Shown piece after piece: positions 910 to 30,116 of a stretch of 64,000 nucleotides of DNA (the first letter of the stretch is position 1; each line of letters opens with the position of its first letter). Source of the stretch: Lacibacter sp. H407 (GTDB lineage: Bacteria; Bacteroidota; Bacteroidia; Chitinophagales; Chitinophagaceae). The notes under the pieces are model-generated. The model saw nothing but the letters and a program-made list of their open reading frames with translations. It did no database searches and was not told the DNA's origin. The stretch is from assembly GCF_037892605.1 (NCBI RefSeq), contig NZ_JBBKTU010000001.1, positions 2,666,001 through 2,730,000 on the forward strand, written 5' to 3'. The position numbers and the translations under genes are program-made.

Positions 910-3900
910 ATGTTTAATAAGTTTATAAAAAGACCGGTTCTTGCTATTGCGCTATCTATCGTAATTGTTTTCATGGGACTGTTGGCTATTAAAACATCAT
1001 CGGTTGCACAGTTTCCTGAAATAGCTCCACCCCGGGTAAATATCTTCATTGAGTTTCCCGGTTCTAATGCAGATGTATTGGTGAAATCAACACTTACCAT
1101 TCTGGAGCGTGCTATTAATGGTGTACAGGGTATGCAATACATTTTGAGTGATGCTACCAGTGCAGGCGAAGCAACGATTGAAGTGATTTTTGAACCGGGC
1201 ACCGATCCAACGCTCGCCGCTGTGCGAGTGAAATCAAGAGTTGATCAGGTAATGACCAACCTGCCTCCTTTGGTTCAACGGGAAGGGGTGATCATCTCTC
1301 CGTTACAACCAAGTATGTTGATGTATTTGAATCTTTACAGCGAGAAAAACGATGTTGATGAAAAGTTTTTATTCAACTATGCCAACACATTTATTTTGCC
1401 GGAGCTTCAACGGATCAAGGGAATGGGACTTGCTCAGGCAATTGGCAGTCGTTCGTTTGCAATACGTGTTTGGTTAAACCCTGAACGAATGAGAGCCTAC
1501 AGCATTTCTGCTGATGAAGTGTTGAAAGCAATTGATGAGCAAAGTGTATTGGCAAGGCCGGGCAGGGTTGGCTTGAGCTCAGGAAAAACTGCACAATCGC
1601 AGGAATATGTTTTTACTTACAAAGGATGGTACAATACACCTGAGCAATACCAGGATATTATTATCAAGGCAAATGCCAATGGTGAACTACTGAAGCTGAA
1701 AGATATTGCTGAAGTTGAAGTAGGAAGTGAATTTGTTGATATCTACTCAAACAAAGATGGCCATCCTTCTGCATCGCTTGTACTGAAACAAAATCCCGGC
1801 AGTAATGCCAGTATCGTGATCGATGAAGTAAAAGCAAAACTGCAGGAGTTGAAAAAAGATTTTCCTCCGGGTATTGATTACGAGATCAACTACGATGTAT
1901 CAAAATTTGTGGATGCATCCATTGAGAAAGTATTACACACATTGGTAGAAGCATTTATTCTTGTGGCCATTGTTGTGTTTATTTTTCTTGGTGATTGGCG
2001 ATCTACATTCATTCCCATTCTTGCAGTTCCTGTATCACTCATTGGTGCATTTACATTGATGAAGTTCTTCGGCTTAAGTATTAACCTCATTACATTGTTT
2101 GCGTTGGTACTCGCCATTGGTGTGGTGGTGGATGATGCCATTGTGGTAGTAGAAGCAGTACATGTGAAGATGGAAGAAGAAAACCTCTCTCCTTTCGCTG
2201 CAGTTAAGAAAGTGATCCGTGAGATCAGTGGTGCCATCATTGCCATAACCTTAGTTATGATCTCGGTATTTGTTCCGGTTGCATTTATGAGCGGACCAGT
2301 GGGTGTACTCTATCGCCAGTTTTCATTGACCATGGCAAGTGCAATTTTCATTTCCGGTTTTGTGGCACTTACGCTTACACCGGTGTTATGTGCCATCTTA
2401 CTCAAGAACACGCATGGCAAACCAAAACGGAAAACGCCGATCAGCATGTTTCTCGATTGGTTCAACAGAACGTTTGAACGTGTTACAGGTAAGTACACCA
2501 AATTTCTTACACTGATTGTAAACCGAAGAGTGGTTACGTTTGGCGTTTTAATTGTATTTGCGTTTGGTATTGCCGGCGTCAACAAAGTGTTACCTGCAGG
2601 ATTTATTCCAAGTGAAGATCAGGGGCAGATCTATGCGATTATACAAACAGCACCCGGCACCACGCTTGAACGTACCAATGAAATATCCAGAAAGCTTCAA
2701 CTGATTGCAAGGAAAATCGAAGGTGTTGCATCGGTAACTTCTCTTGCAGGTTATGAAATTCTTACGGAAGGACGTGGATCGAATGCAGGTACTTGTTTGA
2801 TCAACTTAAAAGATTGGTCGGAGCGGAAACAATCTGTAAAAGAAGTGATCGAAGAGTTGGAAAAAGAATGCAAAGATCTTCCTGCCAATATCGAATACTT
2901 TGAGCCACCTGCTGTGCCGGGTTATGGTACATCGGATGGTTTCTCTCTGCGTTTATTAGACAAAGGCAGTGATGTAGATTACCAGGAATTCGACAAAGTA
3001 AATGCTGAGTTTTTAGCCGAACTGAAAAAAAGAAAAGAGTTGAATGGTTTATTTTCTTTTTACTCAGCTAAATATCCGCAATATGAAATTTTTGTAGATA
3101 ACGAATTGGCCATGCAAAAAGGGGTTTCTGTTGGTGATGCCATGGAAAACATGAACGTCATGATCGGCAGCACCTACGAACAGGGCTTTATCCGGTTCAA
3201 CAACTATTACAAAGTGTATACGCAGGCGGGTCCTGAGTTCAGGAAGCAGCCATCCGACATTCTCAACATGTTTATCAAAAATGAGCATGGTGAAATGGTT
3301 CCCTACTCAGCTTTCATGAAAATCAAAAAGACACAGGGGCCCAATGAAATTGCACGTTACAATTTATACATCTCGTCGTTGATAAATGGTATACCAGCGA
3401 AGAGCTACTCATCAGGTGATGCCATCAGGGCCATTAAAGAAGTAGCATCACAAAAATTACCACGTGGTTATGATATTGCATGGGAAGGTCTTTCATACGA
3501 TGAAGCAAGAAGAGGAAACGAAGCCTTGTATTTATTTCTTGTTGTACTCTTCTTTGTGTATTTAATTCTGGCTGCACAGTATGAAAGTTTTCTGTTGCCG
3601 TTTGCAGTGTTGCTTTCGCTGCCACCCGGTATATTCGGTTCGTTCCTGTTATTAAAAAGTATGGGATTAGCGAATGATGTATATGCACAGGTTGGGCTTA
3701 TTATGTTGGTTGGTTTGCTTGGCAAGAATGCGGTATTGATCGTTGAATTTGCAGTGCAGAAACACAACAAAGGCGCTACTGTACTTGATGCAGCCATTGA
3801 AGGTGCGAGAGCCCGTTTCCGTCCCATCTTAATGACATCGTTTGCATTTATTGCGGGTTTGATTCCATTGGTACTTGCAACAGGACCTGGTGCTGTGGGT

Positions 3901-4155
3901 AACCATACCATTGGTGCATCTGCATTGGGTGGTATGTTATTCGGAACCGTTTTCGGTGTCATCATTGTACCGGGACTCTACTTCGTATTCGGCAAACTGT
4001 CGGAAGGCAAACATCTCATCAGAGACGAAGATGAAAATCCGTTGAGTGAAGATTTTGTTGAAAGCCGTTCCGAGGCAGCACTTACGAAGACGATCAAAAA
4101 ATTAATCAAACGAATCAGAAACACTAATACAAATGAAAATGAACATAACAGCTAA
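910..4155 (+). CDS. RND efflux pump inner-membrane permease (AcrB/MexB, HAE1 family)
   Basis: Proton-driven multidrug exporter of the inner membrane. The 1081-residue length and layout match the family: an N-terminal helix (FIKRPVLAIALSIVIVFMG), two large periplasmic loops, and two six-helix blocks. The proton-relay aspartates of TM4 are visible at about residues 408-409 in GVVVDDAIVVVEAV. The second half carries the matching GLLGKNAVLIVEFA segment. The C-terminal cytoplasmic tail is charged. It follows the fusion protein by 26 bases and overlaps the outer-membrane factor by 23 bases, so the three genes are probably cotranscribed. The substrate is unknown; antibiotics, bile acids or solvents are possible for this family. 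Confidence 0.97.
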   Translation: MFNKFIKRPVLAIALSIVIVFMGLLAIKTSSVAQFPEIAPPRVNIFIEFPGSNADVLVKSTLTILERAINGVQGMQYILSDATSAGEATIEVIFEPGTDPTLAAVRVKSRVDQVMTNLPPLVQREGVIISPLQPSMLMYLNLYSEKNDVDEKFLFNYANTFILPELQRIKGMGLAQAIGSRSFAIRVWLNPERMRAYSISADEVLKAIDEQSVLARPGRVGLSSGKTAQSQEYVFTYKGWYNTPEQYQDIIIKANANGELLKLKDIAEVEVGSEFVDIYSNKDGHPSASLVLKQNPGSNASIVIDEVKAKLQELKKDFPPGIDYEINYDVSKFVDASIEKVLHTLVEAFILVAIVVFIFLGDWRSTFIPILAVPVSLIGAFTLMKFFGLSINLITLFALVLAIGVVVDDAIVVVEAVHVKMEEENLSPFAAVKKVIREISGAIIAITLVMISVFVPVAFMSGPVGVLYRQFSLTMASAIFISGFVALTLTPVLCAILLKNTHGKPKRKTPISMFLDWFNRTFERVTGKYTKFLTLIVNRRVVTFGVLIVFAFGIAGVNKVLPAGFIPSEDQGQIYAIIQTAPGTTLERTNEISRKLQLIARKIEGVASVTSLAGYEILTEGRGSNAGTCLINLKDWSERKQSVKEVIEELEKECKDLPANIEYFEPPAVPGYGTSDGFSLRLLDKGSDVDYQEFDKVNAEFLAELKKRKELNGLFSFYSAKYPQYEIFVDNELAMQKGVSVGDAMENMNVMIGSTYEQGFIRFNNYYKVYTQAGPEFRKQPSDILNMFIKNEHGEMVPYSAFMKIKKTQGPNEIARYNLYISSLINGIPAKSYSSGDAIRAIKEVASQKLPRGYDIAWEGLSYDEARRGNEALYLFLVVLFFVYLILAAQYESFLLPFAVLLSLPPGIFGSFLLLKSMGLANDVYAQVGLIMLVGLLGKNAVLIVEFAVQKHNKGATVLDAAIEGARARFRPILMTSFAFIAGLIPLVLATGPGAVGNHTIGASALGGMLFGTVFGVIIVPGLYFVFGKLSEGKHLIRDEDENPLSEDFVESRSEAALTKTIKKLIKRIRNTNTNENEHNS

Positions 4156-5560
4156 ATACATTGCACTTGTTGTTTGCATAGGTTGGCTGGGTGCCTGTAA
4201 AATACCTGCTGTTAGCAGTAAACAGGAAAGAAAATTTACTCCTGCGGCTTACACCAACTCGCAGGATACAACCAACTCGGTAAAATTAAATTGGAAAAAC
4301 TATTTTACCGATCCCAATCTTCTTGCATTGATCGACACTGCTCTCCGTAATAACCAGGAGTTGAACATAACGTTACGTGAAATTGAAATGAGTAAGAATG
4401 AGATCATGGCACGGAAAGGTGAATACATGCCATTCCTTCATTTGAAAGCAGGTGCTGTTGCCGACAGAGCAGGTAACTACACATGGGATGGCATTTCGGA
4501 AGAAGACTGGAAATCAAGTCCGGATAAAGGTCATCCATACATTGGAGATTTCATGGTGGGTACCTACTTTACATGGGAACTGGATGTGTGGAAGAAATTA
4601 CGTACTGCAAAAAAAGCAACCGTCCTGCGATATCTGTCAACCATTGAAGGAAAAAACTTTATGGTTACAACGATCATTGCAGAAATAGCCAACTCTTATT
4701 ACGAGTTAATAGCGATGGATAATCTACTGGCGATTATTCAACAGAATATTGAGTTGCAAAAAAATGCATTGCAGCTTGTGAAGCTTGAGAAAGATGCTGC
4801 GAAGGTTACGCAGTTAGCTGTTAACCGCTTTGAAGCGCAATTGCTCAACACACAAAATCTGCAATATGAAATTCAACAGCAAATCGTTGAAACAGAGAAC
4901 AGGATCAATTTTTTAACGGGACGATTTCCGCAACCTGTTGTACGTAATTCAGCTGCGTTTAACAACCTGGTGCTTGATCCGATCTTTGCAGGTGTGCCAT
5001 CGCAACTGCTATTTTATCGTCCCGATATTCGACGAGCTGAGTTAGAACTTGCTGCATCGAAATTGGATGTGCAGGTGGCAAAGGCGAATTTCTATCCATC
5101 GTTCAGTCTTACGGCTGGTGTTGGTTTGCAGGCATTCAATCCGGTGTATCTGATCAGGCCGGAATCGATCCTTTATAATTTAGCAGGTGACCTGGTTGCA
5201 CCATTAATCAATAAGAATGCAATTAAAACCACTTACTTTAATGCAAATGAAAAACAGATACAGGCTGTCTATCGTTATGAGCGTTCCATTTTAAATGCGC
5301 ATATCGAAGTGGTGAATCAACTTTCAAGAATGGACAACTTCACGAAGAGTTATGAAACAAAAGCGAAAGAAGTGGATATCCTTACACAATCGATCACTAT
5401 TTCAAACAACCTGTTCCGTTCTGCAAGAGCAGATTACATTGAAGTGTTGTTAACGCAACGGGAAGCATTGGAATCCAAAATCGATCTGATTGAGATTAAG
5501 CTGAAACAACTTAATGCCAAAGTAAATATTTATAAAGCGTTGGGAGGAGGATGGAATTAA
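4133..5560 (+). CDS. Outer-membrane efflux channel lipoprotein (TolC/OprM, NodT type)
   Basis: Trimeric outer-membrane channel of the RND system. The protein has 475 residues, the usual length. The N-terminus is a lipoprotein signal with lipobox LGAC and acylated Cys22. Two repeated OEP (outer membrane efflux protein) halves follow. The family signature LLFYRPDIRRAELELAASKLDVQVAKANFYPSFSL is typical of NodT/OprM proteins and is given here in parts: RPDIRRAELEL near residues 299-309 and AKANFYPSFSL after it. The start at 4133 lies inside the end of the pump gene; a second in-frame ATG at 4139 is possible. A strong hairpin terminator follows 17 bases after the stop, so this gene ends the operon. 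Confidence 0.95.
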   Translation: MKMNITAKYIALVVCIGWLGACKIPAVSSKQERKFTPAAYTNSQDTTNSVKLNWKNYFTDPNLLALIDTALRNNQELNITLREIEMSKNEIMARKGEYMPFLHLKAGAVADRAGNYTWDGISEEDWKSSPDKGHPYIGDFMVGTYFTWELDVWKKLRTAKKATVLRYLSTIEGKNFMVTTIIAEIANSYYELIAMDNLLAIIQQNIELQKNALQLVKLEKDAAKVTQLAVNRFEAQLLNTQNLQYEIQQQIVETENRINFLTGRFPQPVVRNSAAFNNLVLDPIFAGVPSQLLFYRPDIRRAELELAASKLDVQVAKANFYPSFSLTAGVGLQAFNPVYLIRPESILYNLAGDLVAPLINKNAIKTTYFNANEKQIQAVYRYERSILNAHIEVVNQLSRMDNFTKSYETKAKEVDILTQSITISNNLFRSARADYIEVLLTQREALESKIDLIEIKLKQLNAKVNIYKALGGGWN

Positions 5561-5577
5561 AGATGTAAATCTGCAAG

Positions 5578-5624
5578 GGTATTGGCTTCGTCAAATCTAC
5601 AGTGATGAAGCCAATACCTTTTTT
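5578..5624 (+). terminator. Rho-independent terminator of the efflux operon
   Basis: Stem GGTATTGGCTTC (5578-5589) pairs perfectly with GAAGCCAATACC (5607-5618), extends by four more pairs including one G-T wobble, and is followed by six T residues (5619-5624). Confidence 0.9.
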
Positions 5625-5680
5625 AACCTAGTCTGCAACAGCGATATTAACAACTGAGTGGATGACAAGCTTTTCGTCGG

Positions 5681-5828
5681 CCCCTTCCTTCGCAGAAATG
5701 TCTCCCGCAGGGGACGTTTCGTGATGCAGCGTTGAAGTGTAATTACGCCAGGTTCCTTTCAGGAGACATGGCTACGAAATAAATAGAAGCCGGCAGTCAT
5801 TACGTTGCGCTGGTGATTACAGCAGCGG
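5681..5828 (+). repeat. REP-1 interspersed hairpin element, copy A
   Basis: First of three copies of an intergenic element (others near 12.8 and 26.3 kb). Outer arms ATGTCTCC (5698-5705) and GGAGACAT (5762-5769) pair over 8 bp. Inner arms AGGGGAC (5709-5715) and GTTCCTT (5752-5758) pair over 7 bp with two wobbles. They are separated by a 3x3 internal loop and enclose a 36-base loop. The arm-to-arm distance is exactly the same in all three copies. The 3' flank (about 5780-5828) is also shared with copy B, where it forms the 3' end of a small reverse-strand gene. Read on the reverse strand here it still gives a peptide ending AAVITSAT before a stop, a relic of that gene's C-terminus. Confidence 0.85.
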
Positions 5829-5845
5829 AAAGATCCACTTCAAGC

Positions 5846-5879
5846 TTTGGGCAGTTAGTAATTCTGAACATTAGTATTG
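5846..5879 (+). promoter_or_regulatory. Possible Bacteroidota promoter for the 5980 gene
   Basis: TTTG at 5846-5849 and TAGTATTG at 5872-5879 resemble the -33 TTTG and -7 TAnnTTTG boxes with one mismatch. The 22-base spacer is slightly longer than usual. This is the only candidate I see between the repeat and the 5980 start; the support is weak. Confidence 0.3.
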
Positions 5880-5979
5880 TGTTTATTCTCACAGTTATTC
5901 TTCTATGACGCACACTTATAAACTTTATAGGGTTGCTTTTTTTTAATTCGTTTCCAATTCATTACTTTAATCCCAAAAG

Positions 5980-6561
5980 ATGAAACTAACCAGCATTCTA
6001 TTCGCACTTATTTTAATCACATTTGCAGGTAAAACGTCATTTGCTCAAGAGAAAGAGGAAAAAATTAAGTGGGCACCCAACCCCGAAATGATTCCTCCCC
6101 ATTTTGATCCTAACAAACATATTTTGCTGGTATTGCAATTGCCCAAACTTAGAAACCCTGAAAAAGTGCATGTAGCCGGTACAAAAGATATTGATGATGC
6201 CTTTAAAGCTAATTATACAGGTTATCAGTATGTGATGATTTCGCCGGCTGATTTAGAGGATGGAAATTCGAAATACAAAGACACATCGGTTTACCGGTTT
6301 GTGCTATACAATACCGGGGTTAAAATAAGCAGGATAGATGGTGGTTACACATTGCGCACCGATCCAAGTACGGGATTGACGATGCGAACATCCAATCCTC
6401 CCGCTCGAGTTGGGCAAACAATTGTTGATTTTTACATGCACGACCGGGTAACAAATGAGGACTATGTAAGAAGTGGCCGACCTACCAGTTTTATTAAAAT
6501 GACGTTGCGCCCTATTATTTTAACGATGGCGCAGCAAGGAAGGAAAAAGAAAGCTGCTTAA
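5980..6561 (+). CDS. Secreted protein of unknown function
   Basis: I do not recognise this 193-residue protein. It starts with a clear Sec signal peptide (MKLTSILFALILITFAG, cleavage probably after SFAQ), so it is periplasmic or exported. The mature part is soluble, with no further membrane segment. It contains a stretch LLVLQLPKLRNPEKVHVAG, a YVMISPADLEDG segment and a basic tail (GRKKKAA). No catalytic motif is evident. It sits 57 bases upstream of the large T9SS cargo protein in the same direction and could share its transcript. Codon use looks like that of the neighbours. The reading frame is well supported by the signal peptide and length, but its role is open. Confidence 0.8.
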   Translation: MKLTSILFALILITFAGKTSFAQEKEEKIKWAPNPEMIPPHFDPNKHILLVLQLPKLRNPEKVHVAGTKDIDDAFKANYTGYQYVMISPADLEDGNSKYKDTSVYRFVLYNTGVKISRIDGGYTLRTDPSTGLTMRTSNPPARVGQTIVDFYMHDRVTNEDYVRSGRPTSFIKMTLRPIILTMAQQGRKKKAA

Positions 6562-6618
6562 TTTTTAAGCAATCTCCCTTTCAGATAACATTGCTGCGAA
6601 GCAAGGAAACTAAAATAT

Positions 6619-9600
6619 ATGCCCACTTCCAAAATCCTACTCTTGTTATTTACCTGTATATGGTTACATGCATCTGTTGATGCACAGCAAGCTGGCAGTA
6701 AACCAACTCCCAACTCAATACGGCCAAGGGCGTTTACGGAAAATGCCAGGGCGATCGATTCAATCCAATCCACCAATGAAACAGCAAATGCCGGCAGAAG
6801 GAATCATGTTTCAGCACCCCTTACAGGTGCAAAGCTAATTCGCAAAGAAAATAATCCAAAGCAGGCCATCGGGCAGCAACTCGTTCCAAACTATCTGTTG
6901 AATAACCAACAACAAGCGACTTCTTTCAGAACCAATGCCATTTGCTATACCATCTCCGGAAGAAATTTTTTGAAACAAGATTCGCTGGTACTTTATACAA
7001 ATGACGCCTGCAAAACAAAAGATGGCAACGTGCTCGTAACCGGCGAATTTGGGGAATACACACCCTACCTGATAGAGAGCGGTGGCTATTGTATAAAAAC
7101 GGATATCGAAGGTAACGTGCTATGGGCAAAGCTATACGACAGTATAGAAGTTGGCGGAACCGATTACACCTATTATACCAGAGTAATTGAATTAGCCAAT
7201 GGCTCTATCTTACTTGCCGGGAGAACAAAAAACAAAATTTCCGGTAACGACGATTTTGTGTTGACCAAACTGGATAATAACGGCAACCTTATTTGGCTGA
7301 AAACTTATGAAGCGAGGTTATGGCAGGGTTTTAATGGCAGCGGAGATTCTTTTCCGCTAACCGATCTTGAAGAAGACCCGGCAACCGGTGCTATTTATTT
7401 TACAGGCGGTCTTTGGGGAGGTATCAGTTGTGTAACAAAAGTTTCCTCTTTGGATGGAAGTATTTCCTGGAGTAATGGTTATGACGGGTACGATAGTGAA
7501 CAACCTTTTGGCATTGTTATTAACAGCGATCACGTGTTGTTGTTTGATCTTGTGAATGGTTATTATAACCAGAGCTATATTCAAGTGACAGCACTCAATA
7601 AAACGAATGGTGATACCTTATTTACCAAATCGGTCAGCCAAACAGGTGACGCATCGCTGGCCCGTTTATATAGAGGTACCCAAGTGGTGAAGTTGAACAA
7701 CGGGCATTATCGTTTATGTGGTCCTACAACCCGGTATTTTCAATTTCCGGCTTTTACCGGAACAATCGATCTTTTTCATGCGGGTGTAATAGACCTGGAT
7801 GAGAACCTCAATTTTGTGAAGGCCTGGGGGTTTAAAAACCGGCTGGAGGCCAATGGCTATAATACAAAGATCAGTTTGTTCCCTGATGGGAGTGGCCTTT
7901 TTACAATGCTGGATTATGTGAGCAGTTATAACGCTGAAACGATTATTTGCCTGTTCAGGGATGACCAGATCTATCATCAGCGCAAGCGACTGCATGCTAA
8001 TGAAGGGATACCCTATGAGCCGGCAAGTCTGCAACTTGCTGATGGTGGTTTTTTGAATATAAAATTGATGGGAGACAGTACAAAAACCGGAGACCAGGGT
8101 TCACGAATTGACTACTACCGTATTCATACTTCAGATACAGCCTCTTTATGTATTGGGTTAAAGGATTCATCCACCTCTGTTTATTATTTTAATTTCGAGC
8201 CGGTGAACAGGCGAATTAATTCAGTGCTTCCGAATGTCTTCAGGGAAAGTCGGGTTAAGAAATTCGAGCAATGGGACTTTTCGCTTCATCCCGATCCTGC
8301 CTGTGTGGTGGTTTCTAATTGCGATACGTTGGTTCTTCGTTCAACTGCTACTACCATATGCCCGGGCAACAATGTTACGATTACTATTGGCAAGAATAAA
8401 GCATGCGGTAGTCTTGTTCCTTTGGAATATGACAGCAGTTTTGTGAGCAGTGTAACTAAACTCAATGACAGTACTTACAGCTTTCATTTTAATAAACCGG
8501 GTAAAGGATTTATTCGTGCAAGTTTGATGGGCTGTGAGTTAAGAAAGGATTCTGTTTTTGTCGAAGTGCTTCCTGCAGTTTATAAGCTGGATATTGGAGC
8601 CGATACAGTGATTTGTCCGGGAAATGAAGTTGTATTGAATGCCGGCGCCGGGTTTGCTTCATATCAATGGCAGGATGGAACAACTGATTCCATTTTTACA
8701 GTTGTTACTCCGGGAACATATTATGTAACTGCTATTAATGGATGCGGTACATCTTATTCAGATACGGTTATTGTCAACGATCATCCACCTATTCCTATGA
8801 GTATCGGTGCAGATCGAACCAAGTGCAACAATGACACTATTCAACTGAACGGACCATCAGGATTTATTAATTACAGTTGGCTGCCCAATTATCAAGTGAG
8901 TTCTACGAATACACAAACTATTATTGTGAATCCCGCAGTTGATACGTCTTACGTGCTGAGAGCCGAGTTAACGCCGGGTTGTTTTGCCTTTGATACAGTT
9001 CGGGTAAACGTGTTTCGTTCGCCAGTGATCAGTCTTGGATCTGATACAAGTTTTTGTGCGGGCGATAGTTTGTTGTTGAATGCGGGCAGCGGATTTGTAC
9101 AATACAATTGGAATAATGGAAGTAATGCGCAACAAGTAACAGGATATTCAGCGGGTGTTTATTCCGTTGAAGCAATAACAGCAGAAGGTTGTAAATCATT
9201 TGATACGCTGCGCATCGTGAATGTATTTAACAACCCGGTTGTTCGTCTTGATACGGATAACGCTATTTGTGCAGGCAGCAGCAAGCTGTTGGATGCAGGT
9301 AGCTTTGCTGCGTATTTGTGGAATGATGGCAGTTCTGCAAGAACCTTAACTGTGAATCAAACAGGAACTTATTCTGTTACCGTAGCTGACAATAATGGTT
9401 GCGTAGGATCTGATACAACAAGCATTACTGCATTGCTCCCTCTTCCTGCTGGTTTTTTACCTGCCGACACCTCCATTTGTACCTATGACAAATTAACCTT
9501 GAAACCGGAGCAGGGTTTTCGTTCTTATTTGTGGGATAATAATTCCACAAACAGCAATGTTACTATCACCAAGCCGGGATTATATTGGCTTACTGTAACC

Positions 9601-9933
9601 GATCAGAACGGTTGTGTTGGAAGTGATAGTGTTCTTGTTGCTCCGAAAGATTGCCTGGCTGGGATTTATGTTCCCAATGCGTTTACGCCAAACAACGACA
9701 ATCTGAATGATGTGATCTACCCCATCATTGGTGGTACTATTGTTCAATACCAATTCAGCATCTTTAACCGTTGGGGGAAATTGGTTTTTACAACAAACGA
9801 ATTAGGAAAGGGATGGAACGGAATATTCGCAGGTTATCCGCAAGATCCCGGATTGTTTACATGGAAATGTACCTATCAGTTAGAAGGCGATAAACCGCAA
9901 GTAGCGAAGGGGTTTGTAATGTTGATTCGTTAA
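6619..9933 (+). CDS. T9SS-exported protein with Ig/PKD-like repeats and gliding-motility C-terminal domain
   Basis: Large secreted protein (1104 residues) probably exported by the type IX secretion system and held at the cell surface. Signal peptide at residues 1-23 (ending ASVDAQ). Residues about 115-480 form beta-propeller-like repeats of the kind GNVLVTGEFGEYTPYL / GSILLAGRTKNK / FVLTKLDNNGNLIWLKTY. From about residue 654 there are five tandem Ig/PKD-like modules, each with a paired-cysteine pattern (DTVICPGNEVVLNAG; DRTKCNNDTIQLNG; DTSFCAGDSLLLNAG; DNAICAGSSKLLDAG; DTSICTYDKLTLKP). Residues about 1014-1104 are the gliding-motility-associated C-terminal sorting domain (YVPNAFTPNNDNLND, FNRWGKLVF). 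The ligand is unknown; an adhesin or matrix protein is plausible. Confidence 0.9.
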   Translation: MPTSKILLLLFTCIWLHASVDAQQAGSKPTPNSIRPRAFTENARAIDSIQSTNETANAGRRNHVSAPLTGAKLIRKENNPKQAIGQQLVPNYLLNNQQQATSFRTNAICYTISGRNFLKQDSLVLYTNDACKTKDGNVLVTGEFGEYTPYLIESGGYCIKTDIEGNVLWAKLYDSIEVGGTDYTYYTRVIELANGSILLAGRTKNKISGNDDFVLTKLDNNGNLIWLKTYEARLWQGFNGSGDSFPLTDLEEDPATGAIYFTGGLWGGISCVTKVSSLDGSISWSNGYDGYDSEQPFGIVINSDHVLLFDLVNGYYNQSYIQVTALNKTNGDTLFTKSVSQTGDASLARLYRGTQVVKLNNGHYRLCGPTTRYFQFPAFTGTIDLFHAGVIDLDENLNFVKAWGFKNRLEANGYNTKISLFPDGSGLFTMLDYVSSYNAETIICLFRDDQIYHQRKRLHANEGIPYEPASLQLADGGFLNIKLMGDSTKTGDQGSRIDYYRIHTSDTASLCIGLKDSSTSVYYFNFEPVNRRINSVLPNVFRESRVKKFEQWDFSLHPDPACVVVSNCDTLVLRSTATTICPGNNVTITIGKNKACGSLVPLEYDSSFVSSVTKLNDSTYSFHFNKPGKGFIRASLMGCELRKDSVFVEVLPAVYKLDIGADTVICPGNEVVLNAGAGFASYQWQDGTTDSIFTVVTPGTYYVTAINGCGTSYSDTVIVNDHPPIPMSIGADRTKCNNDTIQLNGPSGFINYSWLPNYQVSSTNTQTIIVNPAVDTSYVLRAELTPGCFAFDTVRVNVFRSPVISLGSDTSFCAGDSLLLNAGSGFVQYNWNNGSNAQQVTGYSAGVYSVEAITAEGCKSFDTLRIVNVFNNPVVRLDTDNAICAGSSKLLDAGSFAAYLWNDGSSARTLTVNQTGTYSVTVADNNGCVGSDTTSITALLPLPAGFLPADTSICTYDKLTLKPEQGFRSYLWDNNSTNSNVTITKPGLYWLTVTDQNGCVGSDSVLVAPKDCLAGIYVPNAFTPNNDNLNDVIYPIIGGTIVQYQFSIFNRWGKLVFTTNELGKGWNGIFAGYPQDPGLFTWKCTYQLEGDKPQVAKGFVMLIR

Positions 9934-10048
9934 ACCCTACAGAATCTAAGAAAATGAATCCATTTCTTCAGACGTTTCTTACTTATGAAAATTTAAGCAG
10001 TCAATTCCTTTTTGTAAAGACAGGTACAATGGAATGGTGTATGTGGCT

Positions 10049-10262
10049 CGTTCCGGAATATTCTGAAATAGTAAGAATTGTTTCGGAATGAGCAATTATC
10101 AAATTTATTTGTTTCTCTTTTTTTCGGAATATTCCGGAAAACTGCTATGCCAATTCTATGCATGTAGCGACGCTGTCGTAACAGTTACACTCTATTGTAA
10201 TCCGTCGGCCCGAGGTCTGGTGTAACCGACCCATGGAGCTAGGATATATAAATCCTGGGGTC
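10049..10262 (+). repeat. REP-2 palindrome-rich intergenic element, copy A
   Basis: Occupies most of the 9934-10442 gap between the T9SS cargo gene and the TonB receptor. It opens with TTCCGGAATATTCTG and contains a near-perfect palindrome centred between 10130 and 10131 (one mismatch in the arms). GCTATG, AATTCTATG and a TCTATTGTAA segment follow. A 32-base block ending at the palindrome (10111-10142) is identical to copy B. After the core, similarity to copy B resumes at 10220-10262, where both copies can be read as a short related peptide (RPMELGYINPG here). No gene is seen in the rest of this gap. Confidence 0.75.
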
Positions 10263-10442
10263 CGCTACCTGAGACTCCGGGCGACACAGGACAAACCGAT
10301 AAGTTAGATGTGTGTTCCAGGTTCCTGGTTTTACGTTTTAAGGCTGATTGATGATGCCTGCTTCATTCCGTATTGCGTAAACAGTTTTCCTCATTGTGTA
10401 AATGAATTGAGTGTTTATGATTGACATTTGCACCTGAAAAAA

Positions 10443-12701
10443 ATGCTTATGAACAGGATTCTATTAATTTTTTGGCTGGCAATAACAGCGATAGAAACAA
10501 GTGCTCAACAGGACTCAGTAAAAACAGACAGCAGTCGTCTCCATACAAAATACCTGGCAGATATAACAGTGGTAGGCCGTAACAGCCGGGCAGATGTGCA
10601 TTTCCTGCCTGAAATTGTTGGTGTAAATATCAATGCGGGTAAGAAGAACTCATTAATTGTAGTTGATAATGTGCAGGGAAATGTAGTTACCAACACCATG
10701 CGGCAGGTAGTAGCTAAAATTCCCGGTATACAAATTTGGGAAAGTGATGGAAGCGGCATTCAGATCGGTATTGCGGCAAGAGGATTGAGCCCTAACCGAA
10801 GCTGGGAGTTTAACACAAGACAAAACGGTTATGATATTGCTGCAGATCCTTACGGTTATCCGGAAGCATACTACAATCCGCAACTACAGGCAGTGCAACG
10901 GATTGAAATTATAAGAGGACATGGATCGCTGCAATACGGTCCGCAGTTCGGCGGCATGGTTAATTACATTTTACGAAATGGGAATGAGATCAATAAGCCG
11001 TTTGAATTTGAAACACAACAAACTATTGGCAGCAACGGCTTGTTTAATAGTTATAATGCTGTAGGTGGTGAAACAAAGAAGTATCACTACTATGGTTTTT
11101 TTGATCACCGAAATGCAGATGGATACAGGCAGAACAGCCGTTACTATAACAACTCCGGTTTTGGAACATTTACCTATCGTTTTAACGATAAGTTTTCGGT
11201 TACTGCTGAGTTGATGAGGAGTAACATGCGTAGCCAGCAACCCGGAGGTTTAACCGATGCGCAATTGAAACAAGACATGAAACAAAGTTTCAGAAGCCGT
11301 AACTGGTTTGACGTAACCTGGACAACTGCCGCACTCATCAGCAATTATAAATTCAGCGAAACATCACGTTTGAATGTAAAGTTATTTGCTGTACATGGCG
11401 ACAGGAACAGTGTGGGCTTTATGCCATCTGCAGGAATAATTGTAAACGATACCATCAACAAAACCACCAATCAATACAACACACGTAATCTGAATGAAGA
11501 TGATTACAGGAATTACGGTTTGGAAGTACGCTACCTCGGCGCCTACAAGCTTGGTAAAATGAACAACTCATTTTCATTGGGCGGGCGTTTATACAAAGGC
11601 ACAACACTCCGTTATGCAGCTGATGGAAAAGGAAGTACAGGATCAGATTATGATATGAGGGTGAGCGACGGTATCTGGACAAGAGATATTGATTTCAACA
11701 CGGTAAATGCAGCATTACATGCAGAAAACATTTTCAGAATTTCTGAAAAACTGATCGTTATTCCCGGGTTACGGTATGAATATATTACCGGACAAGCAAG
11801 TGGACGTAATGGTTTCAGTGCCGGTAACGAAGTGTTGTTACAGAATCAAAAGCGCAGCCGTGGATTTGTACTGGCTGGTGTAGGGGCAGAATATCATGTT
11901 ACATCAATGAGCGAACTCTATGCAAATATTACACAAGCTTACCGCCCTGTACAGTTTGCTGATTTAACAGCACCGCCCACAACCGATGAAGTAGACCAGG
12001 ATATAAAAGATGCGAAGGGTTATAATGCTGATTTAGGCTATCGTGGACGTTTTGGTTCCTATCTATTTTTTGACGTAAGTGCATTTTACCTGCAATACAA
12101 TAACCGAATCGGCACTATTGTTCAGCAACGTACCGATGGTAGTTTTTATAACTATCGCACCAATGTTGGTAACAGCACAAGCAAAGGAATTGAGGCTCTG
12201 CTGGAATTCAGCCCGGTAAAAGCAATTACAGAGAAATCAACATGGGGCGATATTAACCTGTTTGTTTCTTATGGTTTCACAGATGCCCGTTATGGAAATT
12301 TTAAAGTGATCACAAAAAACAGCAGCAACCAGTTGGTTGAAAGCAATCTGCAGAATAAGAAAGTGGAAAACGCACCGGAGCATATTGTACGAAGTGGTTT
12401 AACTTATTCGTTCAAAGGATTTTCCTTCACCACACAAGTAAGCTATGTAAGTGAAGCATTTGCAGATGCAAACAATACAGTTACAGCAACAGCAAATGCG
12501 CAAAACGGAATTATTCCTGCATATACTGTTACTGATTTAACGGCGTCGTATCGCTTCAATAAAAATCTAAACATCAAAGCAGGTATTAATAATCTTACGA
12601 ATGAAAAATATTTCACTCGCAGGGCGGGTGGTTATCCGGGACCGGGAGCATTGCCGGCAGATGGAAGGACATTCTTTATCAGTGTTGGAGCAAAATTCTA
12701 A
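10443..12701 (+). CDS. TonB-dependent outer-membrane receptor (FecA-like siderophore/iron type)
   Basis: Outer-membrane beta-barrel that takes up a bound ligand with TonB energy. About 752 residues. A signal peptide (MNRILLIFWLAITAIETSAQ) precedes a plug domain with the usual landmarks: VVGRNSR near the TonB-box region, KIPGIQIWESDGSG, IGIAARGLSPNRSWEF, VQRIEIIRGHGSLQYGPQFGG. The barrel ends in a terminal aromatic strand (FFISVGAKF). The spacing and the RPVQFADLTAPP segment are like Fe(III)-dicitrate or other iron receptors; there is no SusC-type N-terminal carboxypeptidase-regulatory domain and no SusD partner. I chose the ATG at 10443 because it follows an A-run; ATG 10449 and TTG 10428 are alternatives. 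It is a single-gene unit with its own terminator. Ligand not determined. Confidence 0.92.
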   Translation: MLMNRILLIFWLAITAIETSAQQDSVKTDSSRLHTKYLADITVVGRNSRADVHFLPEIVGVNINAGKKNSLIVVDNVQGNVVTNTMRQVVAKIPGIQIWESDGSGIQIGIAARGLSPNRSWEFNTRQNGYDIAADPYGYPEAYYNPQLQAVQRIEIIRGHGSLQYGPQFGGMVNYILRNGNEINKPFEFETQQTIGSNGLFNSYNAVGGETKKYHYYGFFDHRNADGYRQNSRYYNNSGFGTFTYRFNDKFSVTAELMRSNMRSQQPGGLTDAQLKQDMKQSFRSRNWFDVTWTTAALISNYKFSETSRLNVKLFAVHGDRNSVGFMPSAGIIVNDTINKTTNQYNTRNLNEDDYRNYGLEVRYLGAYKLGKMNNSFSLGGRLYKGTTLRYAADGKGSTGSDYDMRVSDGIWTRDIDFNTVNAALHAENIFRISEKLIVIPGLRYEYITGQASGRNGFSAGNEVLLQNQKRSRGFVLAGVGAEYHVTSMSELYANITQAYRPVQFADLTAPPTTDEVDQDIKDAKGYNADLGYRGRFGSYLFFDVSAFYLQYNNRIGTIVQQRTDGSFYNYRTNVGNSTSKGIEALLEFSPVKAITEKSTWGDINLFVSYGFTDARYGNFKVITKNSSNQLVESNLQNKKVENAPEHIVRSGLTYSFKGFSFTTQVSYVSEAFADANNTVTATANAQNGIIPAYTVTDLTASYRFNKNLNIKAGINNLTNEKYFTRRAGGYPGPGALPADGRTFFISVGAKF

Positions 12702-12719
12702 ACTGAAACAGATCATAAA

Positions 12720-12748
12720 AAACTTCACTTAAAAAGTGGAGTTTTTTT
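12720..12748 (+). terminator. Rho-independent terminator of the TonB receptor gene
   Basis: Stem AAACTTCACTT (12720-12730) pairs with AAGTGGAGTTT (12734-12744) with one G-T pair, a tight three-base loop and a T-run (12742-12748), 18 bases after the stop codon. Confidence 0.85.
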
Positions 12749-12754
12749 ATGCCA

Positions 12755-12798
12755 TTTTTTTACGGTGAGTCATGTGGAACCGACTCACCGAAAAAAAA
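12755..12798. repeat. Long inverted repeat with T- and A-tract flanks
   Basis: CGGTGAGTC (12763-12771) pairs perfectly with GACTCACCG (12782-12790). The T-tract before it and the A-tract after it extend the pairing by seven A-T pairs after one mismatch. It abuts REP-1 copy B. Because the T-tract is on the 5' side on either strand, it does not read as a normal terminator. Confidence 0.6.
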
Positions 12799-12926
12799 CG
12801 TCTACCGCAGGGGACCTTTCGTCATACAGCGTTTAAGTGTTGTTACGCCACGTCCCTTTCAGTAGACGTGGCTACGAAATAAAGAAGCCGACAGTCATTA
12901 CGTTCCGCTTGTGATTATAGCAGCGG
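12798..12926 (+). repeat. REP-1 interspersed hairpin element, copy B
   Basis: Outer arms ACGTCTAC (12798-12805) and GTAGACGT (12862-12869) pair perfectly; inner arms AGGGGAC (12809-12815) and GTCCCTT (12852-12858) pair with one wobble. Compared with copy A, two pairs of the outer stem have changed on both sides (T-A to C-G, C-G to A-T), so pairing is kept. The 3' part (12898-12926) overlaps the last codons of the reverse-strand PQQ-like gene. Confidence 0.88.
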
Positions 12927-13245
12927 TTACAGCGGCCTGTGTTGCAGCTGCCGCAGCAGCAACCGGTTCGTTTGCAACGCCTGCCATACTAATAAAGTTG
13001 TAACCCCATCCTTTCAGTTCGTTTACCCATACCAGTGAGCCATCTTTTGCACGTAAGCAAAACAAGATACCAGAGGAGGCTATAAAGAGTTTATCGCCTT
13101 CAGCAGAAATTTGTCCGTAGTTATAGCCATTGCTGTTAGCAAGGTATTCTTTCAGTTTAATTTCCCAACTGATGGCCCCATCTTTTTTATTGACAGCAGC
13201 TACTCTTCCTTTCGACAGAATGTACAGATGATTGACAGGCTTCAT
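12898..13245 (-). CDS. Small PQQ-like (BamB-type) beta-propeller repeat protein
   Basis: A 115-residue protein with no signal peptide. It carries about two PQQ-like propeller blades: ILSKGRVAAVNKKDGAISWEIKL (residues about 9-31), and KLFIASSGILFCLRAKDGSLVWVNEL (about 52-77), each with the AVN/CLR-x-KDG-x-x-W blade motif. A full propeller needs six to eight blades, so this would have to oligomerise or act as a partner fragment. The C-terminus is alanine-rich (EPVAAAAAATQAAVTAAI) and its last codons lie within the REP-1 element. A relic of the same C-terminus is seen at REP-1 copy A. It lies alone between REP-1 and REP-2 copies on the opposite strand to its neighbours. The coding assignment is good; the function is unknown. 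Confidence 0.7.
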   Translation of the reverse strand: MKPVNHLYILSKGRVAAVNKKDGAISWEIKLKEYLANSNGYNYGQISAEGDKLFIASSGILFCLRAKDGSLVWVNELKGWGYNFISMAGVANEPVAAAAAATQAAVTAAIITSGT

Positions 13246-13333
13246 GTTTTTTTGATAAAAATAGGAAATGCGGATGAAGGGAAGTGAAGGAGGGAGGCTC
13301 GCCTGCGAAAGAAGAAACGTTCTGCAAAAATAA

Positions 13334-13573
13334 TATTCCGGAATAGTCCGAAATTATTTGAAAAGTTACGGAATAGGATAGTATTCGTTTTACACGTTTC
13401 TCTTTTTTTCGGAATATTCCGGAAAACAGCTATGTGAATTCTATGAATATAATAGCGTCTTATTAATAGTTACATTCTATTGTAATATAATCCGGATTAT
13501 TTCGGAAATTTTTCCGTTCACTTGAAGTGACGTTTAGCCGACCAGGGGAGTTATCCTATGTAAATCCAAGGTG
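13334..13573 (+). repeat. REP-2 palindrome-rich intergenic element, copy B
   Basis: Contains the palindrome centred between 13415 and 13416 (about 13405-13426), a TTACA / TGTAA hairpin (13470-13474 with 13481-13485, loop TTCTAT) and a perfect 14-base palindrome ATAATCCGGATTAT (13487-13500). A CGGAAATTTTTCCG inverted repeat follows at 13503-13516. The tail at 13527-13573 matches the tail of copy A and can be read as a short peptide RPGELSYVNPR, similar to RPMELGYINPG in copy A. Confidence 0.78.
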
Positions 13574-13669
13574 CCATTATTTGAAATCTGATTTGTACAA
13601 GAAAGATTGTAGTATTGATCCGATTATTGGAGAGAAGATTAATAAAGTTCACTTTGATCGAATAGTCCT

Positions 13670-13801
13670 AACAATGAATTATCGGCTGCTTTCGATAATC
13701 TTCCCCATCCTGATACATTAGTAGAACAGATCGTTGAAAATTTAGAAGCCGGGTTGGAACGTTTTAAAGCGATTATTGCGAGTTTGAATAGTAAAGGATA
13801 A
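13670..13801 (+). pseudogene. Remnant of a type I restriction-modification methylase (HsdM) C-terminus
   Basis: A frame ending at a TAA (13799-13801) reads NNELSAAFDNLPHPDTLVEQ followed by IVENLEAGLERFKAIIASLN. The segment LPHPDTLVEQIVENLEAGLE is like the extreme C-terminal helix of N-6 adenine methylases of type I systems. There is no start codon and a stop lies just upstream in this frame (13655-13657), so only about 43 residues remain. No other hsd gene is recognisable nearby. The rest of the 13246-14033 gap, apart from REP-2 copy B, shows no gene. The identification is by eye from a short segment and could be wrong. Confidence 0.5.
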
Positions 13802-14033
13802 TTCTGATTTTCTTCATTCGCATTATCACAACAGGTACATGAAAATAATTGGCCAGAGCTTACAAATCCTATCTGATTTTCGGATTAAGGAATGTTATAT
13901 AAGCTTTCTCATTGAATGATTTTTGTTTCGATTGTTGATCGTTATCGATATCAAAGAAAATCAGTTGTTTCTGTTGCTGGGCTTTGTAATTTTTTTCCTA
14001 TAATTTACTGTAAAGCGACTTGTAATGTCTGAG

Positions 14034-15242
14034 TTATTTATGATTGCTTGTATCACTTAATATTAACTTATCATCCGGTGTTCTCAGGAGAATGCTTTTT
14101 TCATCAAGAAGACGTTTAAGTTTTTGATCCGTCATTTCATCAAGCAACTGGTTTTTTAATTGGAATATCCGTGTATCATTATCACTTTTGTGCCAATTCA
14201 CAATTTTGCATTTGCAGCTTGCATTTTCTAAGGTGTTCAACACTTCTTCAACCTTGCCACCCCGGCCTTGTTTGACATACACTTCCCTGATCCCAATAAT
14301 ATTATTTTTTTCAGCCACGTCAAAACTCCACGATGCTGATATCACATTTTTATATTGACCTGAATCATTCAGTTTCATCAATGAATGACGGGGTGATTCA
14401 ATTTTTCCTTCTTTGTTTCTGATGTAAGAATGAATTGATACAAGCCAAGGCGATTCAAATTGTATGTAACCATCATGAACAAAACTGGCGCCATAGCGGG
14501 TAAATAAAAAATAGCCGTCTTTGTATTTTATGTCCATGATGTTCGGCACTACCAAATGGTATCGGTTAGGGTCAGTTGATCTTGCTTGTGGCGAGCCCGT
14601 ATAGCAAAGCCAGATTCCTTCTAGGCTGTCAATTTCAGCTTGGGTCACTTTATACGGCAAAATTTTTAAATCATGACTGATTGTTACTACCTGATTCCGG
14701 GATGTTCTCCATTGAAAAGTTGAGTAAATCAATGCAGCGGTCAGCAAAATAATAATAAGTAGCAAGAAGGTTTTACCGGGTATGTTTTTTTTGGGACTGA
14801 GGATTTCTGACGATTCATTTACTTCAGTAACTGGGCTGTCAGTCTTTTCCTGCCAGATAAGATTTTCATCTACCGGATCAGCTTCAAAACCTTTTCTGCC
14901 TTTTCCATATAAATAAATATAACAGGCATCAATTAAAAAAGGACGTGGCTTGGAAACAATCTGGTTAAAGAACGCATCTTTTACCTGATTACCTGTAATG
15001 TCGTATTTGCGAAAAGGGTGTTCAAGTTTCCTTGGGTTTAAATCAATTTCATAACGATCATGAATTAAGGTTTCACTTGTATAAGGAAGTTGATTGCTGA
15101 TTTCACTTAAAACCCTTGCAATCGGCTCATAGTTTTTCCGGTTTGAGTTCTTACTGATTACTTCGCCTGATTCCTTTTCAAACTTTTCTATGACTTTGGA
15201 AAGCAGGTAAACGATTTCGGATTTGCCGCTTACAATTTTCAT
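14034..15242 (-). CDS. Single-pass membrane protein of unknown function
   Basis: I do not recognise this 402-residue protein. Residues 1-125 form a soluble, probably cytoplasmic domain (PIARVLSEISNQLPYTSETL, DITGNQVKDAFFNQIVSKPR). One transmembrane helix lies at about 157-177 (TFLLLIIILLTAALIYSTF). Residues 180-402 would be periplasmic: an IDSLEGIWLCYTGS start followed by alternating beta-strand-like segments (YKDGYFLFTRYGASFVHDG), reminiscent of a lipocalin-like barrel. There is no signal peptide, so the N-terminus should be inside. The gene is divergent from the SusC gene at 15420, with a 177-base gap between the two starts. The layout (inside domain, one helix, outside domain) resembles transmembrane signalling proteins such as anti-sigma factors, but no sigma-factor gene or known anti-sigma motif is visible. 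Confidence 0.75.
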   Translation of the reverse strand: MKIVSGKSEIVYLLSKVIEKFEKESGEVISKNSNRKNYEPIARVLSEISNQLPYTSETLIHDRYEIDLNPRKLEHPFRKYDITGNQVKDAFFNQIVSKPRPFLIDACYIYLYGKGRKGFEADPVDENLIWQEKTDSPVTEVNESSEILSPKKNIPGKTFLLLIIILLTAALIYSTFQWRTSRNQVVTISHDLKILPYKVTQAEIDSLEGIWLCYTGSPQARSTDPNRYHLVVPNIMDIKYKDGYFLFTRYGASFVHDGYIQFESPWLVSIHSYIRNKEGKIESPRHSLMKLNDSGQYKNVISASWSFDVAEKNNIIGIREVYVKQGRGGKVEEVLNTLENASCKCKIVNWHKSDNDTRIFQLKNQLLDEMTDQKLKRLLDEKSILLRTPDDKLILSDTSNHK

Positions 15243-15419
15243 AATTTTCTGAGGGCTAACCTGTTAAAAGATTCCAGAAATTATTTTCCGCTTTCCAGAA
15301 ACCCTGAATTAAAAATAGAATTTTTTCCCGAGACAGATAATTCATGTTCCATGGCTTGATGGTTTAATTTTCACATGCCAACTCTGTATTTAAATTTTAG
15401 ACTACCAAAACGAATTGCT

Positions 15420-18400
15420 ATGCCAAAATTCAGATTCTTACAGTTAAGAACGCTTTTGCTGTTATTTGCTCTGACGGGGTTTTCATCCCAATCTTTTAGT
15501 CAGGAAATAAAAATAACAGGCTCCGTTTTCGATGAGAACAACAACCCGATGAAAGGAGCAACAGTTTCCGTGAAGGATTCAAAAGTAGTTAGTTCCACCG
15601 ATGCCAAAGGAAACTTTAGCATTACGATTCCACAGGGGAAAAATATCCTTGTAATAAGCTTCGTAGGTTACGAAACGCAAGAATATACAGCGGGTATTGA
15701 AAGCAGTATTACCATTAAACTGGAGCCTTCCGCTACAACGCTCAATAATGTGGTTGTTACAGCACTTGGCTTTGAAACGAAAAAGGATAAACTGGGTTAT
15801 GCTACCAACAGGATCAGCGGTGAAGCAGTAAACAATTCAGGTGAATCCGGAATTATTCAGGCTTTGGCCGGTAAATCTTCAGGTGTAAGGATTTCACGTT
15901 CCAATGGTGATCCTGGAAGCGGTTCACAAATTTTGATTCGTGGTCAAAGTACAATCACCAGAAGTACCGACCCATTAATTGTTGTTGATGGAGTTCCCAT
16001 TAGTGGAGATGCAAGAGGCGAAACAGCCGGTGGACAGATTCAGCAACAAAGCAGGCTTAACGACATAAGCATGGATGACGTTGCCAATATACAGGTGCTA
16101 AAGGGAGCATCAGCCGCTGCACTTTGGGGTACCCGTGCAGCCAATGGTGTGATCGTAATTACTACTAAAAAAGGAAGCGGTGGAAATAAGCCCACGATCA
16201 ACTTTCGTTCAACTGTTTCATTCGATCAAGTGAGTGCTTTTTATGATCTGCAGACAACGTATGGTCAGGGGAATAATGGTGTTTGGGCAGCGAATGCCAT
16301 TCGTACATGGGGTGATAAAATAGCTAACAGAGCAGGAGGTGATGATATCCTGAACACAGCAGGAGCTTATTTTGTTGGGAACACCGGCAGAACTATTTAT
16401 CCTATCACTACTAAAAATTCTAAAGAAACTTTTGTTGACAAGAATTATAATGATGTTTTCAGAACAGGACATTTCTTAGATAATTCTATCAGCATCAGCG
16501 GTGGCGATAATAAATCTAATTATTTTGTAAGCCTTAGCGATCTCAACCAAAAAGGTGTGGCACGTGCAGGCAGTGATTACAGAAGAACAACCTTCCGGAT
16601 AAATGCCGGTCGTGAATTCAATAAATGGTTGAACTTTTCAAATAAAACTTCTTATACATTAACGAATTCAAACCGTTTACAGGGCGGTATCAATAATGCA
16701 GGGTTACTCATTGGTTTACTGCGCACACCGCCTGATTTTGATAACTCCGATTATATTGGACAATACTATTCAGCTCCCGGTGGTGCATTTATTCCAAACC
16801 GTCATCGTTCATACAGAAATGGATTGGGTTCATCAACTAACCCCGGTTTTAATAATCCATTGTGGGTAATACATCAATTACAAAACAGCACGCTTGTAAA
16901 CAGGTTTATCAATTCTGCTGAAATAAATATCAAACCTGTTAAATGGTTTACACTTACTACAAGAGCAGGGGTAGATTATTTCACCGATCAGCAGAGAAAT
17001 TATTTTCCCTATTTCACAGCAAACTGGAATGCCGGGCAATACAACCGTGAAGAATATTCAGAAACACAATTCAACCTTGATGTTATTGGAAGAGCAGAAC
17101 ATGATTTCACCAATAAATTTTCGGGTAACGTCCTGATAGGGTTTAATTATAATCATTTAAAAACAACCACTCTTGGAGGTCAATCACAGGATTTTATTCT
17201 GCGGGACGGCCCACAGGATCTTAATAATGCTACACCAACAAATATTTCAACTACTGACAGATACCTGAAACGTATTACCAATGCGGGATATAGCAGTATT
17301 GGATTTGCATGGGATGATCAATTGTTTGTAAACGCAACAGGCAGAATTGAAACAGCTTCAACATTTGGTGAGCTTGCAGCAAAAACATTTTTTTATCCTT
17401 CTTCAGATATCGCCTGGCAATTTACAAAAATCAAAGGCCTTGAATCTCTCAAATGGTTGTCATTCGGTAAACTGCGAGCTTCATTTGGTATAGTAGGTGT
17501 TCAGCCGGGATCCTATAATACAATGACAAATTTTACTGCAAGATCCTGGACAGATGGACTTGGTGGTGCTCTTGATCCTGCATTGTATGGAACCGGTTCT
17601 TATTTACAAAATGATGATAAAGGCAATCCTTATTTGAAACCGGAAAGAAAACAGGAAATAGAGTTTGGTACTGATTTACGTTTCTTTAATAATAAGGTTT
17701 CATTAGGTTTCACCGTGTACCAAAACGAAACCAAGGATGCGTTGATATCCGTTACACAATCGCCGGCTACTGGTTTTAATACGATCTATGCTAATGCAGG
17801 AACCATTGAAAACAAAGGAATAGAGCTTGACCTTGGCTATAATGTATTTCAGAAGAACAACTGGTCATTGGATGTAAATATGAACTGGACCCGTAACCGT
17901 AATCTTGTTACTTACCTTGCTAACACCGGCTCTATCGATTTAGGAGGTAGTAACGGTATTTCTTCAAGAGCAGTTGAAGGATATGCTTTGGGTGCTTTAT
18001 TCTCCAATAAATTTCAACGTGATAGTGGCGGTAAATTTATTCTTGATGCAAATGGATTTCCTGTACTGGATCCTGTTGCAGGAGTTATCGGTGATCCCAA
18101 TCCTGATTGGAGAGCTGCTTTTGGTTTTAACCTGAAGTATAAGATCGTTTATCTGAATGCACTCTTTGAACACTCACAAGGTGGAGATGTAGTGAATGGA
18201 ACTGAAGCGGTGTTACTTGATTACGGCACATCTGCTGCCACCGGTTTTGAAAGAACAAGTGATGTTGCTTTGCAAACATACAGGGGAACCACAATAGCAG
18301 CCGGCACAGCATTCAGAGGCAACATCCACAATTTTGGCGGCGGTAATGTTGCGCTTGATCAAAGCTGGTACACTGGTCCTGGTGGCTTTTTTGGAAATAT

Positions 18401-26284: not shown

Positions 26285-26390
26285 CCCTTCCTTCGCAGAA
26301 ACGTCTCCCGCAGGGGACGTTTCGTGATACAGCGTTGAAGTGTAATTACGCAAGGTCCCTTTCAGGTGATGTGACTACACGAAACAATAA
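26285..26390 (+). repeat. REP-1 interspersed hairpin element, copy C
   Basis: Outer arms ACGTCTCC (26301-26308) and GGTGATGT (26365-26372) pair with one wobble and one mismatch; inner arms AGGGGAC (26312-26318) and GTCCCTT (26355-26361) pair with one wobble. Arm spacing equals copies A and B. The CCTTCCTTCGCAGAAA leader is shared with copy A. As in the other copies it lies just after the end of a transcription unit. Confidence 0.82.
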
Positions 26391-26467: not shown

Positions 26468-26660
26468 TTCCTGAATATTCTGAAACAGTAGGCAATATTT
26501 TGGAATATGGAATAATGGGAACTACGTAAGTATTGTTTTTTCCGGAATATTCCGGAAAAAGACTATGCAAATTCTATGTATCTAACGGAGCTGTATGAAT
26601 AGTTACATTCTATTGTAATATAATCCAGATTATTTCAGAAATCTTCCTTTAGTTGATTCA
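26468..26660 (+). repeat. REP-2 palindrome-rich intergenic element, copy C
   Basis: Contains a perfect 24-base palindrome (26537-26560, centre between 26548 and 26549) followed by the same GACTATG / AATTCTATG segments. A TTACATTCTATTGTAATATA block and a TAATCCAGATTATTT segment then match copy B. It follows REP-1 copy C by about 80 bases. The remainder of the 26253-26888 gap holds no gene that I can see. Confidence 0.78.
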
Positions 26661-29995: not shown

Positions 29996-30093
29996 AAATT
30001 TATTTCTTTTTGGGATGTAGAATTTTCCGGTTCTTTTCGACCTTTTTGCTTCTAATCAATTATAAGTCAACTCTTTAATTACTTTTTTTTATT

Positions 30094-30109: not shown

Positions 30110-30116
30110 ACATTTT

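Follow-up and report, generated by a model that had tools for sequence, protein, structure and literature searches.

The window analysed here is a stretch of 64,000 nucleotides in the genome of Lacibacter sp. H407 (G000:C1:2666001–2730000; the genome comprises 4.87 Mb in 4 contigs), for which gene calls follow a simple longest-ORF criterion. At three places a copy of a short repeat, REP-1, is followed by a copy of another, REP-2, with every element on the + strand, and both the positions and the order are those given in a preliminary description of this DNA. The spacing within the pairs is variable, as described there, at ~4.3 kb in the first, ~450 bases in the second and 84 bases in the third (26.3 kb). 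The contents agree as well: the first pair encloses ORFs 5980–6561 and 6619–9933, and the second a small PQQ-like gene on the - strand. In window coordinates, the features are:

5688–5782, + strand: REP-1, an inverted hairpin dimer, 127 bases behind ORF 4133–5560 (116 bits, covariance model)
5800–5828, - strand: scrap of the 3′ end of the PQQ-like ORF, behind the 5.7-kb REP-1 (window 5696–5828 against 12796–12926, 86%)
6568–6604, + strand: isolated right half of REP-1, located between ORFs 5980 and 6619 (differing at 12 of 37 bases; 0 expected in shuffles)
about 10051–10200, + strand: REP-2 with its 3′ part missing (sequence comparison)
10204–10288, + strand: REP-3, directly behind REP-2 (91.7 bits; this copy went into model building)
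12788–12882, + strand: REP-1, the left edge of a block common to G003, the genome of a sister species (96.1 bits)
12796–13797, no strand assigned: the block common to G003 C1:1519103–1520106 (92% over 1004 bases)
12898–13245, - strand: 115-aa PQQ-like ORF, present too in G003, G007 and G001 (PQQ_2, E 1.3e-7)
13293–13317, + strand: 25-base piece found also in a solitary hairpin, resembling a right half, that lies upstream of the window (92%, E 7e-4)
about 13336–13524, + strand: REP-2, with a 95% identical copy in G003
13516–13577, + strand: possible decayed REP-3 behind REP-2 (weak: 12 bits, E 0.083)
26291–26385, + strand: REP-1, 38 bases behind ORF 25194–26252 (105.8 bits)
about 26469–26650, + strand: REP-2, with no REP-3 reported behind it (sequence comparison; REP-3 model search)

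REP-1 has a length of 95 bases and consists of two hairpins in inverted orientation, which are able to pair mutually into one long hairpin. The fold z-scores of this long hairpin are −4.7, −4.4 and −3.1 in three copies. Across 13 copies it exhibits a mild excess of two-sided changes, found in 5 of 24 pairs (reached in 30 of 500 shuffles), together with 18 further pair types (matched or exceeded in 8 of 500 shuffles); in the two separate hairpins two-sided changes are not in excess. The repeats do not arise by chance, since no + strand match to either half of REP-1 or to its middle turned up when the 155-kb region was shuffled five times. By eye, the outer left foot is GCAG in six of seven copies, while the right foot is GTAG in three, GAAG in two, and GCAG and TTAG in one each. 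No target duplications were seen by eye, and for none of the REP-1 copies did we find a clean empty site that retains both flanks. Around the 26.3-kb pair the right flank recurs in G001 (from ~26845) and G007 (from ~26879), and the empty site is unreadable because both have other genes on the left.

REP-2 is a repeat separate from REP-1 and REP-3, AT-rich, palindrome-rich and about 180 bases long. It resembles MITEs in its size, its palindromes and its absence beside the PQQ gene of G007, and is unlike them in its terminal repeats, which are poor by eye, and in that neither a target-site duplication nor a parent transposon was found; its edges are not set to the base. REP-3 is a third family that has the layout of REP-1 and CCCGGGGTC stems. 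It is found behind REP-2 at 10204, more faintly at L011:15676 (23 bits) and with a weak match at 13516 (12 bits, E 0.083); the model search reported none behind the REP-2 at 26.5 kb or that on contig C2.

How are these repeats distributed? We searched with a covariance model of REP-1 built from 7 copies, some of which are among those scored here, setting aside other-strand matches of the same copies. Eight copies in the genome exceed 50 bits, seven of them reaching at least 85 bits and the eighth being a partial copy of 52 bits at 2661757. Weaker matches occur at 2661680 (35 bits), at 3240263 (33 bits, outside the cluster) and at three places with 26 bits or less. All those of at least 35 bits lie within 2660961–2750865 on the + strand. 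REP-2 has five copies, again all on +, four in the REP-1 region and one on C2. The preliminary description had proposed that the pair forms the two ends of a composite unit, and had named many solo or reversed copies as speaking against this. Solo copies are indeed frequent: of the eight REP-1 copies scoring over 50 bits 5 are unpaired, more than are paired, as are 2 of the 5 REP-2 copies. Reversed copies are absent from this genome, where REP-1 above 50 bits and all five REP-2 are on +; in G003 one of four REP-1 copies is on the - strand.

Within the genus REP-1 was found in 6 of 14 genomes, and in none of 85 outside it (99 genomes, our own included; the filters may lose weak matches). REP-2 turned up in 2 genomes of the genus, with its five copies here and one in G003. 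Thus four congeners with REP-1 had no REP-2 found. The relatives of REP-1 in two of these, G006 and G012, are more distant and look like sister families. REP-3 is present in 7 of 14 genus genomes at 33 bits or above, and in 12 of 14 at E ≤0.01, where many matches are short. Cores of REP-1 and REP-3 (26 and 29 bases, exact search) had no match in a collection of genome contigs that possibly excludes our own and near genomes. Sister families of REP-1 with GCAAYGTC stems, single hairpins in part, occur at L171 and L174 (own genome), L187 (G010), L188 (G012) and L058 (G006).

Are the order, spacing and strand of the pairs non-random? We kept the eight REP-1 positions and the region fixed, and placed four REP-2 randomly in its 38 gaps. 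In 22% of trials at least two REP-2 landed behind a REP-1 at a distance of up to 700 bases, in 39% at least three did so within 5 kb, and in 18% each REP-2 came directly after a REP-1 in order. As to strand, the span has 70 ORFs, 61 of them on +, and therefore twelve elements that follow their upstream genes would all be + with a probability of 0.19. Order, distance and strand are thus not unusual given the clustering (simulated P of 0.18 for order, 0.22 for spacing and 0.19 for strand). That order and strand are constant calls for no particular cause, and a link between REP-1 and REP-2 is unnecessary: REP-1 is followed by REP-2 on + without one because the region is rich in repeats and most of its genes are on +. 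The other suggestion, of one hotspot collecting both repeats, is roughly right, and they meet because both accumulate in the same chromosome stretch. The clustering of REP-1 in ~90 kb is itself the given of the simulation, which leaves it unexplained, and it counts against reading the repeats as independent.

We classified 18 REP-1 and 30 REP-3 copies of at least 33 bits by their flanking ORFs, dropping opposite-strand matches of the same copy. REP-1 lies between tandem genes on the same strand in 13 cases and on the opposite strand in 1, between convergent genes in 3 and divergent genes in 1; the corresponding numbers for REP-3 are 18, 5, 7 and 0. When the families are pooled, 31 of 37 tandem copies point as the upstream gene does, with 10 convergent and 1 divergent; the background consists of gaps of at least 60 bases, of which 225 are tandem, 52 convergent and 48 divergent. 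Sign tests on the tandem copies give 0.0009 for REP-1 and 0.005 for REP-3, where the copies are partly non-independent: two REP-1 neighbours share one gap, two G007 rows for REP-3 belong to the halves of a single split copy, and two species have one block in common. Placement is extragenic, only 2 of 48 copies overlapping ORFs of more than 100 aa under the simple ORF rule. Thus the constant orientation arises because REP-1 and REP-3 are mostly behind genes and point with the upstream gene. For REP-2 (5 copies, that on C2 left out) there are 3 tandem same, 2 tandem opposite and no convergent or divergent positions, and so the position rule is not seen in it, just three of five following the upstream gene. 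A replication-strand rule was also considered and rejected; the direction of 22 among 28 copies matched the local GC skew, and of the six others five follow the upstream gene and one matches neither.

Placement behind genes and in their orientation, the folds, and the mild covariation of the long hairpin would all fit a role for the dimers as selected RNA elements of 3′ UTRs, either terminators or transcript protectors, rather than mobile repeats. We consider this unlikely. Wobble pairs in REP-1 lack strand asymmetry (17 G·T against 15 A·C cells, one pair with a G·T consensus being excluded), congener orthologues of two of the genes are without the element, and the window has no Rfam match at gathering score. 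Downstream of the efflux genes ending at 5560 no REP-1 was seen within ~700 bases in G003, G001 and G010, where other sequence is present.

What becomes of the pairs in related genomes? The second is kept as a block in G003, comprising REP-1, the PQQ-like ORF and REP-2, which speaks for a composite unit; the block does not end with REP-2, and continues for ~270 bases beyond. In G003 it lies in another context, behind a 136-aa ORF and another REP-1, and therefore, as a unit, it either moved or had its flanks rearranged. Here it is preceded by a TonB-receptor gene, the G003 orthologue of which is elsewhere (C1:4394436–4396826) with a different gene after it (by eye). In G007 homology to the TonB-receptor locus ends at window 12761, and the next gene then follows (by eye). 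A leader sequence is found before the TonB-receptor gene at window 10366–10443, and G003 and G007 carry a second copy of it before the next gene. The PQQ gene of G007 has a REP-3 right half to its left and a REP-3-like element to its right, and neither REP-1 nor REP-2 was found in that genome. The absence of REP-2 beside this gene therefore indicates either later insertion here or loss there.

A scrap of the same gene, ~28 bases of its 3′ end, remains behind the 5.7-kb REP-1, which therefore possibly has the same source as the 12.8-kb pair. This scrap is the best evidence that the first and second pairs may share a source; none is shown for the third. The REP-1 of the third pair is closest to an unpaired copy at L011:1771 (94% over 90 bases; low tree support), and the tree does not group the REP-1 copies of the three pairs together (short sequences, low support). 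Gain or loss of the enclosed genes had been proposed as a point of comparison, and in G010 the two genes of the first pair are separated: the homologue of 5980 (75%) is at C1:140554–141081, where a REP-1 precedes it by ~2.3 kb, and the 6619 homologue (82%) is at C1:1207269–1210267. Being ~1.07 Mb apart, they are not one cargo there.

A composite mobile unit with REP-1 as its left end, REP-2 as its right end and genes carried between them would account for the constant order and strand at three places, for the conservation of one pair as a block in a different context, and for the PQQ gene scrap common to two pairs. We nevertheless regard it as highly improbable. It is unsupported because both repeats have unpaired copies, the paired REP-1 copies do not group, the enclosed genes are apart in G010, and the shared block overruns REP-2; in addition, REP-3 is the closer neighbour of REP-2 at two places.

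Immediately upstream of the window are five REP-1 copies, two of them partial, alternating with genes. DNA matches in 13 congeners cover ~17% of L009:3000–15700, against ~80% of window 30000–42000 and 71% of window 4000–16000 (shares summed by hand from rows with repeat pieces excluded, and with a single hand-picked control stretch for gene turnover). A 96-base repeat is found at L009:4162–4257 and 7087–7182 (88%), at the start of the - strand ORF 3435–4211 with its copy behind ORF 6518–7078. Gene scraps terminate at element edges. In G010 a VOC-like ORF (by eye), complete at L055:7858–8322, is also present as a 5′ fragment at L055:5964–6206, and this fragment stops at the 5′ edge of a REP-1. 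The end of the outer-membrane efflux ORF 4133–5560 with its terminator, 155 bases in all (window 5520–5674), has a 93% copy at L011:5077–5231 that starts directly behind a REP-3. In G007 (L103:4333–5564) two ORFs separate the halves of one split REP-3, and TTAGAAT is found at each inner edge; a second possible split there, with halves ~5 kb apart, has no such repeat at its inner edges. In G003, L054:600–6400 contains AAA ATPase-, subtilase- and ThiF-like ORFs (by eye) before two REP-1, possibly a defence-type operon.

Could the dimers be attC-like exchange sites of a cassette system that lacks an integron integrase, with genes entering the loop or joining the edge, so building arrays? The arrays of genes and elements upstream of the window, the small share of DNA matches to congeners in that stretch, the gene fragments ending at element edges and the 7-base repeat at the split REP-3 all argue for it, and like attC sites the hairpins of REP-1 and REP-3 are behind genes, in the same direction, in gene-site-gene arrays. 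The ends of attC are RYYYAAC and GTTRRRY, and these motifs were not seen by eye in the REP-1 alignment. Nor was an integron integrase identified: none of three matches to the general model PF00589 was recognised as IntI, two being XerC/XerD-like and one a broken fragment (named by eye), and an integron is unsupported. There is moreover one clean split case only, and REP-1 is at the left edge of the 12.8-kb block, not behind its gene. We consider a cassette system quite improbable.

REPs are described as lying mostly between unidirectional or convergent genes, near the 3′ end of the upstream gene, often as dimers, and with GTAG or CGTC tags (Di Nocera 2013, PMC3733652); REPINs are inverted REP doublets that form hairpins (Bertels and Rainey, PMC3116915), and Y1 enzymes of Bacteroidetes are flanked by atypical secondary structures (PMC6006769). 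REP-1 and REP-3 are like REPINs and BIMEs in having two inverted hairpins and a spacer that form a longer hairpin, and in lying outside genes, mostly behind the upstream gene. They differ in the low copy number of REP-1 (8 above 50 bits in the genome), in a foot that is GTAG or GCAG only in part, in their clear orientation, and in that no RAYT gene is beside any of the copies examined in our genome, where four Y1_Tnp loci have no REP-1 or REP-3 match of more than 10 bases within ~1.5 kb. No linked transposase was found. The tagged REPs of PMC3733652 have similar outer feet (GCAG/GTAG in REP-1, CGTC/TGTC in REP-3, by eye) and the same class of position; the REP-3 loop of ~10 bases in place of 4–5, the interrupted stems of REP-1 and the few copies set our repeats apart. 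Thus REP-1 and REP-3 are REPIN-like rather than REPINs: their layout and position fit, but their copy number does not and there is no linked enzyme. We have not met REP-1, REP-2 or REP-3 in the literature searched on REP, REPIN and RAYT elements, integrons or Chitinophagaceae repeats, which is no proof that they are unpublished.

With the distribution, position, orientation, fold and shared block of the repeats established, we think it probable that REP-1 and REP-2, as members of two distinct families of small repeats, have each spread on their own and gather in the same gaps between genes. The REP-1 and REP-3 dimers would have moved as single-stranded hairpins by means of a putative Y1 (RAYT-like) enzyme, and the enclosed genes would have arrived separately. 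Against such independence are the pair kept as a block and the gene scrap that the 5.7-kb REP-1 shares with that block, together with a REP-1 copy number below that of classic REPs, the adherence of REP-2 to the position rule in only three of five cases, and the negative results for a linked enzyme and for a clean empty site.

The pairs illustrate how a simple position rule together with clustering can yield a striking order of repeats, and low-copy REPIN-like families are described here in one genus. If the split REP-3 copy is typical, hairpin dimers would be sites of gene exchange outside integrons. Elsewhere in the window direct repeats at 53426–53680 and 58021–58275, 4595 bases apart and 72–79% identical, are probably tandem gene paralogues.
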